Shown piece by piece: positions 229 to 35,339 of a DNA stretch of 35,475 nucleotides (positions are counted from its first letter, which is position 1; every line of letters starts with the position of its first letter). A program made the translations under genes and the position numbers. The stretch is from positions 1-35,475 of the forward strand of contig JALHNZ010000034.1 of the NCBI GenBank assembly GCA_022843265.1. Reading direction: 5' to 3'. The DNA is from Gemmatimonadaceae bacterium (GTDB lineage Bacteria > Gemmatimonadota > Gemmatimonadetes > Gemmatimonadales > Gemmatimonadaceae). Below the pieces are notes generated by a model. The model made no database searches. It saw only the letters and a program-made list of their open reading frames with translations, and had not been told where the DNA came from.

Positions 229-2421
229 CTAGCGTTGCACCACTGAGCGCACGCCATCGGACAGCACGACCTCCACGCGTCGACCGTTGGTCGCCACTGC
301 ATCGCCGGACCGTCGGACAAAGCCCATGATCTGCCCATTCGACGCATCCCGTACCATGGCCATTGGATACGCGTCGGTGTTCCAGGAAATGCGTGCGCCG
401 TTCGCACCAATCGACGTGACGCGAGCATCCGGATCCTCGCGTAACACGGAACGCGCGACTGCGGATTGCACGCGCGCTTCACGGGTTGATCGCGCATCGC
501 TTACGCGAATAGTGGTCAGTCGTGATTCGAGCGACGCGCTCCACGGCACGACCACTGCAAAGTGTCGCTCGTCGCGGTCGGTGATGTGGTCCACACGCTC
601 GCTGCTGAAAAACACGGTGTGCAGCGTAGCACCCGCGTCGTCGAGGAGCTCCGCGCGATGTGTGCCACTGAAGGCGTTCAACACGGCGGCGCGCACACGG
701 AATGCTGGCTCGAGAATGATACGGCCGTTTACAGTGCGTCCCCAGATCAACAGTGCGTCCGTCGGAGCAGCCGACATTGGGCCCGCGCGCATAGAGGCAA
801 CGCTGGGCTGCGTGCCGCGGTACTGCAGCACGGCGCTCCAGGTGTAGTCGCTGATCCAGTTGTTGCTGCAGTAGCCCATGATATCATGGGCCGAACTCTG
901 CACCAGCGAGTTCGTGCTGGCGTTCCAGCCGATCTGCCCGATCACACCGCCGGGATACGGGTACCCTGCGTCACCGCTCGTGCTGCAGGGCGCGTGATGA
1001 CGCGAGAAGTTGTGGCCCCACTCATGCGCGGCAACTTCATGACCACTGGGCATTTTGTCCCAACCAATCGCGGTGAGACCGGGAACGTAGCCATAGCCTG
1101 CGATGCCACTATTGTAGTTCGTGCTTACCACGCCGTAGTAGTGCTGACCTGGAGCGCCTTCCGCAACACGCAGCGCGTTCAGTTCGCTGAGCACGGTAGT
1201 CCAGCCGTTGTTGGCGTCGTTCGATTGCAGTTCCGTGGCGCTTGACGTGAAGGGCGCGCGAACGTCAGCCACCACGCTATTGATCGGAAAGATCTTCCGT
1301 GCTGTGCTGAGGAACTGTTCGTAATTAACGACGGTGACGTTTCCGCTCACCAAGCCAGTCACGACTGGCACAAATCGCACGGTGAATGTGGGCACGTTGC
1401 GGGTGGCGATTGCCTGCGGCGCACCACCTGCTGGCCACACATTGTCAGCGGCATTGGCGTCAGGGAACGCGCCCGTCGGGTCCAACTCTGCCACCACACG
1501 CAAGCCGGGGCGCATGTTGGCGGCCGGAATCGCGAGGTTCCAACTCGACTGCAACGTACCCTGCGAAACTGATGTGCGAATGCTCGCCTCCGGTGCGGCA
1601 ATCGTCACGTTCTGCAGCAGTGTGGCGCCATCGTACACGCGAACGCGTACATCCGGACGGGCCGTATTGGCAACGGTCGACTGCACAAACACGCGGAGCA
1701 GGGCATCACGTCCGGCAACAAGTTCGACCGAGCCATCGAGTCGCTGTGTTGCCTGCGTGACGTGGACGTGGCTGATGAAGTAGTTCGTACCCCCGGATGC
1801 GACATACGAAAACGTGACCGGCGTATTGCCATTGGCCGTAACGTTGACGTTCGCTGAAGGCGCAGACGGGGTGTACGTTGTGCCGGCATGGCTCAGTGTT
1901 GCGGCGCTGATCGTGTACGCGCCGGGGTTCAGACCGGAGATGGTCTGCGTGCCCGATATCTGCTGCGTACCAGAGGCGCCTGACAGCGTAAACGTGGGCG
2001 TGACCCCGCTTGGTAGCCCCGTTGCCGCAATGGTGATCGCGCCTGAGGCGCGTGCGTACACAACAGAGGCGTTGGCCGGCTGCAATGATGCAGAGACCAC
2101 ACGCTGCTGTGTGAGAGGAGAAGGTGTGTACGTGGTGCCCGAATGCGTGAGCGAACTCGCGGCGATCGTGTAGGTGCCGGGCGTAAGCAGTGACAGCGTG
2201 GTGGTCGACGACACGGCTTGCGAAAAGTTGTTGGGTCCTGTGACTGTTATTGCCGCCGCGACACCGCTCGGTACACCGCTCACGGAAACAGCAAGCGATC
2301 CGGTGCTGATGTTGTAGTGTACGGGCAGGCGAAGCGTGTCGCCGGCAGTCGCATTGCCCTGTGAGTTCGCCGGCGCGGGCACATACGTGGCGCCACCGTT
2401 TGTCACGGTCGCGGCGGACAC
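229..2421 (-). CDS. Metzincin-like zinc metallopeptidase, C-terminal part of a frameshifted gene
   Basis: This reading frame holds two and a half copies of an approximately 85-residue Ig-like repeat, then a linker of the CARDB type, then a protease domain. The zinc site is H-E-W-G-H-N-F-S-R-H-H (residues 466-476 of this frame), matching the metzincin pattern HExxHxxxxxH, except that the usual Gly at position 8 is Ser. About 37 residues later the sequence HDIMGYC (512-518) supplies the Met-turn. This resembles M66-like or reprolysin-like secreted proteases. A C-terminal region of about 200 residues with beta-rich character follows. The annotated start (GTG at 2421) is probably not real: the repeat pattern continues upstream in another frame, into the lipoprotein at 2403-3710. 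Correcting one base would give a single product of 1160 residues, a surface-anchored or secreted protease. Its substrate is unknown. Confidence 0.85.
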   Translation of the reverse strand: MSAATVTNGGATYVPAPANSQGNATAGDTLRLPVHYNISTGSLAVSVSGVPSGVAAAITVTGPNNFSQAVSSTTTLSLLTPGTYTIAASSLTHSGTTYTPSPLTQQRVVSASLQPANASVVYARASGAITIAATGLPSGVTPTFTLSGASGTQQISGTQTISGLNPGAYTISAATLSHAGTTYTPSAPSANVNVTANGNTPVTFSYVASGGTNYFISHVHVTQATQRLDGSVELVAGRDALLRVFVQSTVANTARPDVRVRVYDGATLLQNVTIAAPEASIRTSVSQGTLQSSWNLAIPAANMRPGLRVVAELDPTGAFPDANAADNVWPAGGAPQAIATRNVPTFTVRFVPVVTGLVSGNVTVVNYEQFLSTARKIFPINSVVADVRAPFTSSATELQSNDANNGWTTVLSELNALRVAEGAPGQHYYGVVSTNYNSGIAGYGYVPGLTAIGWDKMPSGHEVAAHEWGHNFSRHHAPCSTSGDAGYPYPGGVIGQIGWNASTNSLVQSSAHDIMGYCSNNWISDYTWSAVLQYRGTQPSVASMRAGPMSAAPTDALLIWGRTVNGRIILEPAFRVRAAVLNAFSGTHRAELLDDAGATLHTVFFSSERVDHITDRDERHFAVVVPWSASLESRLTTIRVSDARSTREARVQSAVARSVLREDPDARVTSIGANGARISWNTDAYPMAMVRDASNGQIMGFVRRSGDAVATNGRRVEVVLSDGVRSVVQR

Positions 2422-3710
2422 GCGCCAGACGCCAACGCTGGCGGGCGAGATGCGCGTTGTGCTTGTGACTGACTGCGGCGACCCGCTGGGGGCGTGACTG
2501 TGATGCTCGCGTTCACTCCGCTCGGAAGTCCCGTTAACGAGATGTCAACAACGGTCGGCACGACGATAAAGGCGACATTCGCGCTGGTGGTCGTGCCTGT
2601 CGTTATCAGGACGCTTTGTGTTGCCTGCGCTGGCATGTACCGCACATCGCTCGCGGTAAATGTTACTGCCGAGAGCAGATACTGCCCGACCGGAAGTGAA
2701 TCGAGCGTCGTGGTGCCATCCACTTGCCGCACACCGTTTACGCCACTGAGCGTAAATGTCGGTGTCGCGCCGCCCGACAGGCCACTGGCGGTCACGCTCA
2801 GGCGACCGACTTGCGCGGCATACGAAATGTTGACTGGCGCGGCCACGAGCGAGGCCGTTACGCTCACATCAATGCTATCAGGTTGCGGCTGGTACGTGAT
2901 GCCGCTCTGCGAAACGGGAGCCGCTGTCACGCGGTAGCTTCCCGGTGCGAGATCTGTCAGCGTCGCACTCGCGGCGAGTGTTCGATCAAATGCGTTCGGT
3001 CCGCGCACGCGCACCTGCGGGCTGGTTCCCACCGGAAGTCCAGCCACGGCAACAGCCATCGCACCGCTTGAGAGCGAGAAGTTCACATTGAGCCGAGCGG
3101 TATCGCCGAACAACGCACTGGCTTCGGCTGCCTCCGGTGCCGGCGCGTAGCGATATCCACCAGAACGCAGTGTATCGGCAACGAAACGCCATCGGCCGCC
3201 CGCGCGGTGTGTGAACACGCGCGAGTTTTCCGCGCTCATCCCGGAGTCAGTTGGCGTGAAGACGGTCACGGGCGCGGCAACACCTGCGGGCGCGCCGGTT
3301 ACGGTCAGCGCGAGCGCCGATGGCAAGGGCTCATAGCGCGCCGCGACGGTTGTGGGTGGTGCACCACTTACAACGGTCGCTGTAATCGTTGACGGATTTC
3401 CGACGTACGTACCAGTCGCGGCGCGCACGGGTGCCAACGTGATGGTGTACGTGCCGCCCGGCAGATCGCTCCAGCTGGTTGTGGCTGTCGCAGTTCGCGC
3501 AATGCCCGGGCCGACAAGCGAAATGTTCGCCGCAACGCCCGGGAGTCCTTCTACCGTGAGAATCAGAACGCCGGGTGGTAACGGCTGCGCGGCGGGCGGC
3601 GGCACCGTTGGTGGCGGACCCGCAACAGTCTGCGGGTCGCCGCCTGAGCAGGCGGCGAAATAGAGCAGGACAAACGGCAGTACGGATCGAGAAAAACGCA
3701 GTTGAATCAC
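2403..3710 (-). CDS. Ig-like repeat lipoprotein, N-terminal part of the frameshifted metallopeptidase gene
   Basis: The protein starts (GTG) with a signal peptide and lipobox ending FAAC-SGG, so Cys21 should be lipidated and the protein exported. A short Pro-rich linker follows. Four and a half repeats of about 85 residues then follow, each opening with a strand of the type LxVTxxGLPxGVxxxI and closing with a G-x-Y-x-I/V and Y-x-P pattern. The tail after about residue 405 (rich in Arg, Ser, Gln and Pro, ending CPPRP) breaks the repeat pattern, which resumes exactly in the neighbouring frame. Seven repeats are counted across both frames. This is therefore the N-terminal half of the protease encoded down to 229. 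If the frameshift is genuine in the cell, only a protease-less repeat lipoprotein would be made. Confidence 0.8.
   Translation of the reverse strand: MIQLRFSRSVLPFVLLYFAACSGGDPQTVAGPPPTVPPPAAQPLPPGVLILTVEGLPGVAANISLVGPGIARTATATTSWSDLPGGTYTITLAPVRAATGTYVGNPSTITATVVSGAPPTTVAARYEPLPSALALTVTGAPAGVAAPVTVFTPTDSGMSAENSRVFTHRAGGRWRFVADTLRSGGYRYAPAPEAAEASALFGDTARLNVNFSLSSGAMAVAVAGLPVGTSPQVRVRGPNAFDRTLAASATLTDLAPGSYRVTAAPVSQSGITYQPQPDSIDVSVTASLVAAPVNISYAAQVGRLSVTASGLSGGATPTFTLSGVNGVRQVDGTTTLDSLPVGQYLLSAVTFTASDVRYMPAQATQSVLITTGTTTSANVAFIVVPTVVDISLTGLPSGVNASITVTPPAGRRSQSQAQRASRPPALASGACPPRP
2488..2492 (-). other. Apparent frameshift in a homopolymer run
   Basis: The plus strand has five G here (five C in the coding sense). 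Adding one base turns the out-of-frame tail of the upstream reading frame into residues TPPSGSPQSVTSTTRISPAS, which completes repeat five and joins directly to the downstream frame. The corrected gene 229-3710 has 1161 codons including stop. The event is either a sequencing or assembly error in the homopolymer, a true mutation, or a slippage or phase-variation site. Confidence 0.8.
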
Positions 3711-3806: not shown

Positions 3807-4835
3807 CTAGCGTGTTGGCAGGCCCGGACGATTACTCGCGCTGCTCCGCCACGTAGCGAGCAGGGCGAGTGTCAGCAGCACAGCGTTCGCGCTCCACATC
3901 GCGACCAGAGGCGACACGACCGCTCGATCAGCAAGTGTTTCTCCGCCCATGAGCATCGTGTAGTAGAGGGTGAACACGGCCATGCTCCCGACCACCACGA
4001 GCGCCGATCCGCCGCGGGGAAGGGCAAAAACGAATGCCATACCCGCGAGTGCGAACACCATGCATGAGGCGGGAAGCGCAAGCTTCTTTTGTACTTCGAC
4101 CTGTAACACTGATAGACGCGCTGCTCCTGCATCACGTGTCTGTTCCTCGCGTACGGCCTCACGAAGCTGGCCGATTGTCATTTCACGGTCACCTTTGGCC
4201 GTTCGCTCGCCGGAGAGAACCTGGCTGAGCTGGTGATTCGTTCGCGGTACAATCTCCGCGGTAACTACATACGCAAGCGCAGTGATTCCTGCGGCGAAAA
4301 GCAGAACAGGTCGCACAAGGCGTCGCACCCCGTTGCGCGTGCGCAGGGCAGCGGTAATCGTACCGCGGGTGCCGAGTCGCGTAAACAACACCAGCACGGC
4401 CACCAGCACCGCCATGGGGATGGTCAGCGCTGCGTTGAAGGGAATCGCGAGCACCAGCACTTCCGCAATGATATCCGACGCGCCGCGGTCATGCAGGCGT
4501 GGAATCATGTGACGTGCGTAGAGACCGAGCGTGGCGGATGTGAGCAGCACAAACGAGACGGCAAATGCGAAGGCGAAACGGCGCAATAACTCACGCGCAG
4601 TTGGCAGTGGTGCGTTCGGATCGTGCCTGTTGCTCGGCCGAACCTGCTCGTACCCGGCCCGCATGACCACGTCCCACACACTCCGCACACTGGCGAATGC
4701 AACGTGCCACAAACCATGCGCACGCGCCTGTGCAACTTCCCGCTCGAATAACGCAGCCATCGCGCCCCCGTGCTTGCGTTGCAGATCGGCAGGCAGCAGT
4801 CGCAACGCTGCGCGATAGAGACGAAGCGTGATCAT
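3807..4835 (-). CDS. LptF/LptG-like six-helix membrane protein with permease-prefix N-terminus, lacking the jellyroll domain
   Basis: Residues 1-70 (LYRAALRLLPADLQRKHGGAM...) resemble the cytoplasmic prefix domain found in front of ADOP-type ABC permeases of Acidobacteriota and Gemmatimonadota. Six hydrophobic segments follow at roughly 86-105, 122-150, 175-195, 250-270, 275-296 and 305-327. The second half matches the YjgP/YjgQ (LptF/LptG) pattern: REMTIGQL, then VEVQKKLALP, then a helix, GG, YY, GG-LA and MWSAN. In LptF/G a beta-jellyroll of more than 100 residues lies between helices 3 and 4; here only about 50 residues do. The protein therefore keeps the membrane core but not the part that carries lipopolysaccharide across the periplasm. 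Its ATG overlaps the stop of the padR gene (ATGA), so the two are coupled. Transport of LPS is unlikely; the substrate is unknown. Confidence 0.7.
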   Translation of the reverse strand: MITLRLYRAALRLLPADLQRKHGGAMAALFEREVAQARAHGLWHVAFASVRSVWDVVMRAGYEQVRPSNRHDPNAPLPTARELLRRFAFAFAVSFVLLTSATLGLYARHMIPRLHDRGASDIIAEVLVLAIPFNAALTIPMAVLVAVLVLFTRLGTRGTITAALRTRNGVRRLVRPVLLFAAGITALAYVVTAEIVPRTNHQLSQVLSGERTAKGDREMTIGQLREAVREEQTRDAGAARLSVLQVEVQKKLALPASCMVFALAGMAFVFALPRGGSALVVVGSMAVFTLYYTMLMGGETLADRAVVSPLVAMWSANAVLLTLALLATWRSSASNRPGLPTR

Positions 4836-5152
4836 GCACCCCCCAGCGCCAAACGTGTACGTGCGACGCGGGCGAGTGATTGCAACCGCTCGGCCTCACG
4901 CTCCAGCGCCTTGCGCCCCTCTCGCGAAAGCCGGTAGAAACGCTCGCGCCCGGAAATGCCCTCGGGGCGCTCGTCTTCCGCCACTTCTTCCAGCCATTGC
5001 TGCTCGACGAGTTCTTCGAGCGATCCGTACAGTGTGGCGGGCCACAGGCGAACCGCGCCGTCGCTGAGCGCGCGCACGTCGTCCTGAATCGCCGAGCCGT
5101 AGCGCGGCGCGGCGGAGACCGAAAGGAGGATGAAAAAGTGGTGGGGTTTCAT
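4832..5152 (-). CDS. PadR family transcriptional regulator
   Basis: The 106-residue protein has the winged-helix pattern of PadR: MKPHHFFILLSVSAAPRYGSA, followed by LWPATLYGSLEELVEQQWLEEV and a wing with RERFYRLSREGRKALEREAERL. In this family the segment L-x-x-G-T/A-L-Y-x-x-L-x-x-L forms the recognition region. The C-terminal helix serves for dimerisation, and the short length fits subfamily 2. Its stop overlaps the start of the LptF/G-like gene. In related phyla PadR genes commonly sit directly before membrane genes that they repress along with themselves. The upstream region 5184-5217 holds a plausible autoregulatory site. The start has no clear Shine-Dalgarno site. Confidence 0.92.
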   Translation of the reverse strand: MKPHHFFILLSVSAAPRYGSAIQDDVRALSDGAVRLWPATLYGSLEELVEQQWLEEVAEDERPEGISGRERFYRLSREGRKALEREAERLQSLARVARTRLALGGA

Positions 5153-5183
5153 AGGGAGGCGGGTAGGAGCGCACCTTGATATG

Positions 5184-5217
5184 AAAGCATACTATTGATT
5201 GATACTTTGCGGCGCAA
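5184..5217 (-). promoter_or_regulatory. Candidate promoter and PadR operator
   Basis: Reading on the minus strand, TTGCGC (5212-5217), a 17-base spacer and TAGTAT (5189-5194) form a weak sigma-70-like promoter that points into padR. An imperfect inverted repeat, AAAGTAT (5202-5208) and ATGCTTT (5184-5190), overlaps it, and the element AGTAT occurs twice. Such a palindrome over the -10 region is where a PadR repressor would bind. The -35 matches only three of six consensus bases. Confidence 0.4.
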
Positions 5218-32983: not shown

Positions 32984-33099
32984 GTCAGTCTGTCGTGGAG
33001 GGACACAAGCAGGCGAGAATGGGGAACCTACTCGGCGCCTCCACGATACATCAACAGTTACACTCCCGCGATCAAACGATCTTCTCTTTCAAGTCAGCC
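32984..33099. promoter_or_regulatory. Shared divergent promoter region of the transporter and egtBD operons
   Basis: Only 116 bases separate the two starts, so the operons probably share regulatory sites. I see neither a consensus promoter pair nor a clear palindrome, and neither gene has a strong Shine-Dalgarno site. A joint control of ergothioneine synthesis and transport would act here. Confidence 0.4.
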
Positions 33100-34362
33100 A
33101 TGACCGTTGTTCCTCTGGTTTCTGCCTCACACACGCTCGCGGCCCGCTATCGCAGCGTGCGCGAGGCCACCGTGGCGCTCTGTGCGCCGCTGGAGAATGA
33201 GGATTTTGTCGTGTCCAGTATGGACGACGTCAGCCCAACCAAGTGGCATCTGGCCCACACCAGTTGGTTTTTCGAGACCTTCGTGCTGGCGCCGTACCTG
33301 TCATCGTACGTCGCTCGGCATCCCCGCTACGCGTTTCTCTTCAACTCGTACTACGTGCAGGCTGGAGAGCGCCATTGCCGAGCGCAGCGTGGGCTCGTCA
33401 CGCGCCCCACGGTGAGCGAGGTGTTCGAGTATCGTCGCTACATCGACGAAGCGGTGCTGTCGCTCTGCGAGCGAATCGGCGACGATATCGATCATCCGGC
33501 GTGGAACGTGCTCGAGCTCGGCTTGCATCACGAACAGCAGCATCAGGAGTTGCTGCTTACTGATATCAAGCACGTGTTTTGGACCAACCCCATGCGGCCG
33601 GTCTATTCTGAGGTGCCACTGCCGGTGATGTCAGCCGTCTCCCAGGAATGGCAGCAGATCAGCGAAGGCGTGTACGAGATAGGCCATGGTGGCGAGGATT
33701 TTTCGTTCGACAACGAGAGCCCGCGCCACAAGTCGTACGTGCAGTCATCCAGAATGGCGACACGATTGATCACCAATGCGGAATACGCGCAGTTCATCGC
33801 GGACGGCGGCTATCGCCAGCCTGCGCTGTGGTTAAGTGCCGGATGGGCCACCGTGCAAGCGGAGAAGTGGAACGCGCCGCTGTATTGGGAGCAGCGTGAC
33901 GGTAGCTGGTACGAGTTCACACTGTGTGGCGACGGTCCACTCTCGGCCACCGCTCCGGTCACGCACCTGAGCTATGTCGAAGCCGACGCGTTCGCGCGGT
34001 GGGCCGGCGCTCGCTTGCCAACCGAAGCGGAATGGGAAGTGGTCGCGCGGTCGCAGCCGATCACGGGCCATTTCGTCGACGGGCGTGCGTGGCATCCGTC
34101 AGGAGCCGTCGGACCTGGTATGCAGCAGCTGTTCGGTGACGTGTGGCAGTGGACGCAGAGCCCGTACGTTGCGTATCCAGGATTCCGTCCGTCTGCGGGT
34201 GCGATTGGTGAGTATAACGGCAAGTTCATGTGCGACCAGTGGGTGTTGCGCGGAGCGTCGTGTGCGACACCGCGTGCACACGCGCGCCACACCTACCGCA
34301 ACTTCTTTCCCAGCGATGCGCGCTGGCAGTTTACAGGTATCCGACTGGCGGCGGACGCATGA
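33100..34362 (+). CDS. egtB: Ergothioneine biosynthesis protein EgtB (hercynine-thiol sulfoxide synthase)
   Basis: EgtB joins hercynine with cysteine or gamma-glutamylcysteine, using oxygen and a non-heme iron, to form the sulfoxide precursor of ergothioneine. Start at ATG 33100 (MTVVPLVSASHTLAARY), 420 residues, the normal family length. The N-terminal DinB-like domain (about 10-165) has WHLAHTSWFFE (His50 or His53) and LGLHHEQQHQELLLTD, where His144 and His148 complete the three-His iron site. The C-terminal FGE-sulfatase-type domain (about 190-420) has NAEYAQFIADGGYRQPALWLS, ARLPTEAEWE, GDVWQWT and the closing RNFFPSDARWQFTGIRLA. The thiol substrate (Cys or gamma-Glu-Cys) cannot be read with certainty. 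The stop overlaps the start of egtD. Confidence 0.95.
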   Translation: MTVVPLVSASHTLAARYRSVREATVALCAPLENEDFVVSSMDDVSPTKWHLAHTSWFFETFVLAPYLSSYVARHPRYAFLFNSYYVQAGERHCRAQRGLVTRPTVSEVFEYRRYIDEAVLSLCERIGDDIDHPAWNVLELGLHHEQQHQELLLTDIKHVFWTNPMRPVYSEVPLPVMSAVSQEWQQISEGVYEIGHGGEDFSFDNESPRHKSYVQSSRMATRLITNAEYAQFIADGGYRQPALWLSAGWATVQAEKWNAPLYWEQRDGSWYEFTLCGDGPLSATAPVTHLSYVEADAFARWAGARLPTEAEWEVVARSQPITGHFVDGRAWHPSGAVGPGMQQLFGDVWQWTQSPYVAYPGFRPSAGAIGEYNGKFMCDQWVLRGASCATPRAHARHTYRNFFPSDARWQFTGIRLAADA

Positions 34363-35339
34363 CGCGCGTCTCAGCACAGAATCTGTCGCGTCGCCATACA
34401 TCTGCGAGTTCTCTCCTTTCGCCGTCGCTGACGGCAACGGTGATGCGAGGACTCACGGACAGTGTGAAGACCCTGCCTGCGGTGCTTTTTTACGACTCCG
34501 CGGGTGCCATGCTGTTCGAACAGATCTGCGATCAGCCCGAGTACTATCCGACGCGCACCGAGATAGACATTCTTTCGCGTTACGCGTCCGATCTCGCCCG
34601 GCAGGCGGGCGATCATGTCGCGCTTATTGAGTACGGAAGCGGCGCTGGCGTCAAGGTACGCTACCTGCTCGACAAACTGCGCGACCCGGTGGCGTACATT
34701 CCCGTCGACGTATCGCGAGAGCAGCTGGCAAGTGTTGCGCGCGAACGCGGGGGGCAGTACCCCGGGCTGCGCATCGCGCCGGTGTGCGCAGACTACACGC
34801 TGCCGTTCGAGTTACCCGTGCTCCCCAACGAAGCGCGACGTGTCGCCTTCTTTCCAGGCTCGACCATCGGGAATTTTCACCCAACGGAGGCCGCGGCGTT
34901 TTTGCACCGTATTCGACACACCGTCGGAGCGAAGGGCGGCCTCATTCTGGGTGTTGATCGCCGAAAAGATCCGCGGGTATTGCACGAAGCGTACAACGAC
35001 CGCGCTGGCGTGACTGCGGCGTTCAACCTGAACATGCTGGCGCATCTCAATCACGCCATGAGCGCCAACTTTGATCTGACCACGTTCCGGCACGTCGCGT
35101 TCTTCAACAACGAAGCCAGTCGCATCGAAATGCATCTCGAATCGCTGGTGGAGCAGGAGGTGCTCGTCAATGACACGCGAGTCTACTTTGAGGCTGGCGA
35201 AACGGTGCATACCGAATGCTCCTACAAGTACGACGAGCAGACGCTGCACGCGCTGGTTGAGAGCAGCGGTTTTGCCATTGACTCGTTGTACAGTGATGTG
35301 AACGACTGGTTCTATCTGGCGTGGCTTCGGCCCGCCTGA
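34359..35339 (+). CDS. egtD: L-histidine N-alpha-methyltransferase EgtD
   Basis: EgtD trimethylates histidine with three SAM to give hercynine, the first step of ergothioneine synthesis. The start is ATG 34359 within ATGA, the overlap with the egtB stop. The 326 residues match the family length. Landmarks: KTLPAVLFYDSAGAMLFEQICDQPEYYPTRTE, the SAM loop EYGSGAGVKVRYLLD, PVDVSREQL, FPGSTIGNFHPTEAAAFL, LGVDRRKDPRVLHEAYND, GVTAAFNLNMLAHLN and the histidine-pocket strand VHTECSYKYDE, in which the Glu and Ser that hold the histidine amino group in studied EgtD are present. The conserved Asn between them is Cys here. No EgtA, EgtC or EgtE gene is seen in the window, so the final C-S lyase must be encoded elsewhere. 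Confidence 0.96.
   Translation: MTRVSAQNLSRRHTSASSLLSPSLTATVMRGLTDSVKTLPAVLFYDSAGAMLFEQICDQPEYYPTRTEIDILSRYASDLARQAGDHVALIEYGSGAGVKVRYLLDKLRDPVAYIPVDVSREQLASVARERGGQYPGLRIAPVCADYTLPFELPVLPNEARRVAFFPGSTIGNFHPTEAAAFLHRIRHTVGAKGGLILGVDRRKDPRVLHEAYNDRAGVTAAFNLNMLAHLNHAMSANFDLTTFRHVAFFNNEASRIEMHLESLVEQEVLVNDTRVYFEAGETVHTECSYKYDEQTLHALVESSGFAIDSLYSDVNDWFYLAWLRPA

Follow-up and report, generated by a model that had tools for sequence, protein, structure and literature searches.

A short LptF-like membrane protein without jellyroll or LptB-docking motif, encoded with its own PadR regulator in Gemmatimonadota

We report a two-gene cassette of Gemmatimonadota in which a shortened relative of LptF, a subunit of the LptB2FG exporter of lipopolysaccharide (LPS), is encoded directly downstream of a stand-alone PadR-family regulator. 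Because the short protein has lost the LPS-carrying and motor-gripping parts and has a PadR of its own, its role is probably that of a sensor or regulator in the membrane and not that of a transporter. The account that we favour, with a probability of roughly 0.55, is that the cassette is a self-regulated membrane-protein/PadR dyad resembling the HAAS-PadR dyads, with a motor-less LptF core as its membrane part. Envelope machines of the Lpt type are known as transporters; if this account is true, an Lpt core without cargo domain and motor contact has been retained with its own regulator for another job.

The window, which is the whole stretch of 35,475 nucleotides that was analysed, belongs to a draft genome of 4.6 Mb in 211 contigs. 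The cassette occupies the following positions (residue numbers are those of the short protein):

5189 to 5208, reverse strand: probable PadR operator, AAAGTAT-N6-ATAGTAT, in the padR promoter (repeat found in type-A loci)
5176 to 5182, reverse strand: possible third half-site, 13 bp beyond the second (positions 5176 to 5195 match the pattern with 2 mismatches)
4832 to 5152, reverse strand: padR, a stand-alone PadR-family winged-helix regulator of 106 aa, type A (PF03551, E 2.7e-10)
3807 to 4835, reverse strand: short LptF-like membrane protein of 342 aa (PF03739, E 2e-34)
4611 to 4835, reverse strand: prefix A, residues 1-75, three predicted helices, cytoplasmic by topology (profile and model)
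3834 to 4610, reverse strand: six-helix LptF core, residues 76-334 (structural alignment to LptG and LptF chains)
4323 to 4367, reverse strand: TM2-TM3 loop, residues 157-171, site of the LptB-docking coupling helix, its motif lost (Glu in 0 of 17)
4125 to 4211, reverse strand: residual periplasmic linker, residues 209-237, replacing the jellyroll (model without strand; spacer length)
4083 to 4100, reverse strand: VEVQKK, residues 246-251, predicted periplasmic start of TM4 (conservation)

The two reading frames overlap by ATGA, padR being the upstream gene. PadR scores 40.6 bits against PF03551 (cut-off 27) and the short protein 119.6 bits against the Pfam LptF_LptG profile (2e-34; cut-off 27.9), while the NCBIfam LptF equivalog gives it only 69 bits, far below its cut-off of 230, and a scan with the ADOP-related profiles (TIGR03434 and the FtsX and MacB_PCD cores) returned no match. 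In the whole-genome search the Pfam match fell into two pieces, covering positions 3-130 and 240-353 of the 353-position profile, so that the part corresponding to the jellyroll is missing. Ordinary LptF and LptG genes lie side by side on contig 25 of the same genome, and the nearest named loci are canonical LptF/LptG pairs of Gemmatimonadota and Eisenbacteria.

The short form is a recurrent one. A three-row profile found it in 15 of 179 same-family genomes at E 2e-171 to 5e-67, well separated from the canonical matches (5e-34 and weaker). An even sample of the phylum has it in 17 of 395 genomes, two of these matches coming from other families of the class and one being frameshifted. In total, 18 Gemmatimonadota loci carry the same cassette, of which 17, full or contig-cut, serve here as the short proteins (three, L040, L048 and L050, are cut by a contig edge) and the frameshifted one is excluded. 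With 17 copies in different genomes, sequence error is ruled out as the source of the short form, and no correction of the sequence could restore the jellyroll, an outcome that would have overturned the sequence-only reading of this locus. The padR gene stands directly upstream in 17/17 loci having upstream DNA (13 of 15 loci, the other two being cut by contig ends, and 3/3 further loci; for one contig-cut locus padR was recovered on an overlapping contig), and under a nearest-start rule the two genes overlap by ATGA in 9 of 13 loci and stand 2 bases apart in the remaining 4. Save for some synteny among near relatives, a neighbourhood survey of 15 loci identified neither a conserved neighbour other than padR nor an lptG or lptF partner gene; the ORF picking in this survey missed some overlapping padR genes, and PadR counts were taken from other surveys. 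A survey of prefix-plus-core proteins and their neighbours, proposed in the earlier reading as a check, has therefore yielded a cassette of 18 loci with padR as its sole conserved neighbour gene. Beyond the phylum, one profile search of contigs retrieved only two canonical LptF loci, and 0/47 genomes from the phylum of locus L007 gave a short match in a search that had no positive control and is uninformative on absence. Two loci show signs of damage: the frameshifted short-A gene adjoining padR (L083, genome G109) and a decayed-looking short-B gene whose neighbour reads by eye as padR (L145, genome G391).

To establish which parts of LptF have been kept and lost, the 17 short proteins were set against 40 LptF and 34 LptG sequences from the same phylum and L007. 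All 17 have only 43-82 aa separating the end of TM3 (PxxN/PxAN) from VExxKK; the stretch that links the two profile halves has a median length of 257 residues (113-386) in canonical LptF and of 111 in LptG. The Gemmatimonadota LptF sequences (L011-L066, L088) are themselves unusually long between the profile halves, which suggests an enlarged periplasmic region in these proteins. An AlphaFold2 model of the window protein (pLDDT 80.5, pTM 0.75) consists of three prefix helices and six long helices with no strand, and its residues 76-334 overlay LptG chains at a VIA-align Z of 24.4 (rmsd 2.4-2.6 over 252-253 residues) and LptF chains at Z up to 22.8, against Z 9 and less for unrelated rows, a match that is not fully independent since four canonical LptF/G rows stood in the model's alignment. 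Motifs kept by the short family include TM2 P..T.P, PxAN, DRxMTxxELR, VExxKK, YY, GExLAD and AMWxAN; E247 and K250 are present in 17/17 short proteins and K251 in 94%, all three common to LptF. Thirteen residues are invariant in all 15 rows of the short-family alignment at ~34% identity.

What has been lost, besides the jellyroll, is the contact with the motor. In Klebsiella LptB2FG a glutamate of each coupling helix, LptF E84 and LptG E88, is described as contacting LptB (PMC5548808). This TM2-TM3 glutamate occurs in 40/40 LptF and 34/34 LptG but in 0/17 short proteins, and residues 157-170 have entropies of ~2.7-3.6 bits in the short family versus 0-2 in LptF, the loop now being hypervariable and one of the least conserved parts of the core. 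We regard the anatomy of the short protein, namely an LptF core with no jellyroll, a prefix and an adjoining padR, as firm. The sequence-only reading had recognised all six LptF/G helices with the segment REMTIGQL...VEVQKKLALP and a short periplasmic domain without jellyroll; the Pfam match, the model, its comparison with LptB2FG chains and the spacer lengths agree with it, and its suggestion that the core has been reused outside LPS export is supported. Within the short family, periplasmic and cytoplasmic positions do not differ significantly in entropy (p 0.23), a point against the dyad account; the change relative to LptF does differ (p 0.002), but this comparison was made post hoc and depends in part on the coupling helix, without which p is 0.057. 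A preference of the short family for conserved periplasmic over cytoplasmic positions therefore appears weak.

A core tree of 67 rows (17 short proteins, 30 of the 40 LptF and 20 of the 34 LptG) resolves the short proteins into one clade (100/100) that joins LptF, against LptG (100/100). Within this clade, the proteins bearing prefix A (11; 98/94) and those bearing a second type, prefix B (6; 95/78), are sisters. The tree, which is flagged for long branches meeting, points firmly to a single origin of the short family on the LptF side, and what had been described as an LptF/G core, correct as to family, can be narrowed accordingly.

The N-terminal prefix of the window protein is predicted to form helices at residues 2-12, 16-40 and 42-64 before TM1, with low to middling pLDDT of ~51-76. 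A prefix-A profile run on 20 genomes detected, besides short proteins, 11 others (E 6e-10 to 8e-5), and on reading, the frames of all 11 run into an FtsX-type permease, making them ADOP-type, with a PadR upstream in 11/11. Seven of these were profiled: six match FtsX and MacB_PCD, the fragment L126 has no Pfam match, and two of the six, scanned against TIGR03434, match at 1e-93 or better. The prefix is thus, as first proposed, one otherwise found on ABC permeases. All matches to prefix B (5 in 20 genomes, 6 in 345) were short proteins or a decayed copy, with no ADOP in either set, and profile comparison detected no kinship between prefixes A and B, both of which count against the dyad interpretation. 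Common descent of prefixes A and B and a third ADOP prefix likewise found no support by profile comparison.

PadR types follow the prefix. In a PadR tree the PadRs of short proteins divide by type: type A groups with the PadRs of prefix-A ADOPs (97/97), type B with those of other ADOPs (97/95). As the prefix-A ADOPs were picked by their prefix, the grouping of their PadRs is a fair test; type-C ADOPs were picked by similarity to PadR-B, and type B accordingly shows PadR kinship only. PadR type tracks prefix type, not core, and taken with the sister relationship of the two short groups in the core tree this means a joint change of PadR and prefix on an unaltered core. On the core tree the exchange between A and B happened a single time. 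From the sequences we infer that such a joint exchange is what a physical or functional link between PadR and prefix would leave behind. Another PadR of the same genome (L107, contig 128) adjoins an ADOP permease with a different prefix, which weakly resembles HAAS (E 0.13, below the cut-off).

The promoter of padR contains a 20-bp repeat with the family form ATA[G/C]TAT-N6-ATA[G/C]TAT, present at 11/11 type-A padR promoters with 12-14 of 14 matches and a spacing that is always 6. Shuffles of the window gave an expectation of 0.05 repeat matches, and in 3300 shuffles 12 matches were reached nine times and 13 never. Across the 11 genomes, searched with <=1 mismatch, the repeat occurs only at the padR promoter in 10 (in two of them twice, overlapping); the remaining genome, G102, has no repeat at this threshold and its promoter site carries two mismatches. 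A reversed control pattern occurred once in three genomes. This restriction to the padR promoter suggests that the main target of a type-A PadR is probably its own operon, with weaker sites elsewhere possible, and self-regulation of the padR operon appears likely. The coupling to PadR perceived at the single locus is matched by an upstream padR in 17/17 loci and by a repeat found only there. Upstream of type-B padR genes (L135, L042, L137, L138, L078 and L081) lies a TATATGTAGAATAA-like element whose end is 3-6 bases ahead of the start codon in 6/6, as for a leaderless transcript.

Several known systems share features with the cassette. LptF of LptB2FG, the nearest by tree, has the same six-helix core with TM2 P..T.P, PxAN, MTxxEL and VExxKK; the short protein differs from it in lacking the jellyroll and coupling-helix motif, in its extra N-terminal prefix, and in the position of its gene, alone with padR instead of beside lptG. 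HAAS-PadR dyads, proposed in PMC11237479 to be an alternative to two-component systems, carry the helical HAAS domain on membrane cores such as FtsX/MacB and FtsW/RodA; the main text of that study names no LptF core. Common to both, as far as the dyads are described there, are a stand-alone PadR adjoining a multi-helix membrane protein and an N-terminal three-helix cytoplasmic domain. In contrast, a scan at E up to 10 gave no Pfam HAAS match for any of 10 prefix-A or 6 prefix-B members, which speaks against membership of that Pfam family, and the window protein has no GxP motif as in the third HAAS helix, a further point against the dyad interpretation; a G.P string occurs within the first 90 residues of 2 of 15 proteins (L042 at 88, L049 at 69). 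ADOP permeases (NCBIfam TIGR03434) share prefix A and the upstream PadR type, but their core is FtsX/MacB_PCD, to which the window protein shows no match. In Listeria, LstR and LltR are reported mainly to repress their own operons with membrane proteins (LstR-Lmo0421, LltR-Lmo0600), and Lmo0421 to be a RodA/FtsW homologue without that function (PMC6624303); the core and phylum are different there and the envelope is Gram-positive. A literature search found no publication that describes an LptF paralogue together with PadR.

Taken together, these features would fit a scheme in which an LptF paralogue without jellyroll and LptB-docking helix has retained its six-helix core and the periplasmic motifs specific to LptF, with a short cytoplasmic ADOP-type prefix standing in place of the ATPase contact. 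PadR would bind the promoter repeat and repress its own operon, and the prefix may contact PadR; the LptF core could then pass the state of the membrane or periplasm, perhaps its lipid or LPS load, via the prefix to PadR, as proposed for HAAS-PadR, the output being the level of the membrane protein itself. That the core signals to PadR by way of the prefix is the most plausible reading.

Among alternative explanations, we consider it unlikely that the short protein is a decoy or regulator of the resident Lpt exporter, pairing with LptG (or LptF) in an export-incompetent complex so that PadR tunes LPS export. Descent from the LptF side, a fold that fits LptF/LptG, and the retention of normal LptF/LptG genes in its own genome, with canonical matches listed for 13 of the 15 same-family genomes having the short protein, would all suit such a role, but the cassette is not linked to lpt genes, no copy of the operator lies elsewhere in the genome, and the exchange of prefix with PadR is left unexplained. 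Many characterised PadR operons pair an efflux protein with a ligand-responsive repressor. A motor-less secondary transporter or efflux protein whose PadR senses the exported compound would follow that pattern, of which LadR/mdrL is an example (PMC6624303), and MATE transporters appear among the weak fold matches (Z ~7); such values are common for helical bundles, however, and the joint change of prefix and PadR again goes unexplained, which makes this reading distinctly improbable. Still less credible is an ATP-driven transporter with its ATPase encoded elsewhere, as the sequence-only reading had ventured: the core is of LptF type, and Lpt and ADOP permeases often have no adjoining ATPase gene, but the coupling-helix motif has disappeared in 17/17, its loop is hypervariable, and padR is the only conserved neighbour. 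A decaying gene with no present function, to which the long branches in the core tree, the frameshifted locus of G109 and the decayed-looking one of G391 might point, is very hard to reconcile with the 13 invariant residues and the joint retention of open frame, padR and promoter repeat.

Under the self-regulated dyad that we prefer, the cassette offers a test case for whether PadR-prefix pairs signal, and because the promoter repeat is limited to one operon, a single reporter would read the output. Structural studies could also take the short protein as a naturally minimal LptF core. More speculatively, and with considerable doubt, PadR-prefix pairs might be a receiver that can move between proteins and has come to sit on several retired envelope cores (ADOP, FtsW/RodA-like and LptF).

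Elsewhere in the window, two overlapping reverse-strand ORFs with similar repeats (229..2421 and 2403..3710, together spanning 229..3710) appear to belong to a single secreted repeat protein that has a weak reprolysin-like match; a frameshift near 2410-2500 may have split it. On the forward strand, two adjoining ORFs at 32995..35339 resemble, by eye, EgtB and EgtD of ergothioneine synthesis.
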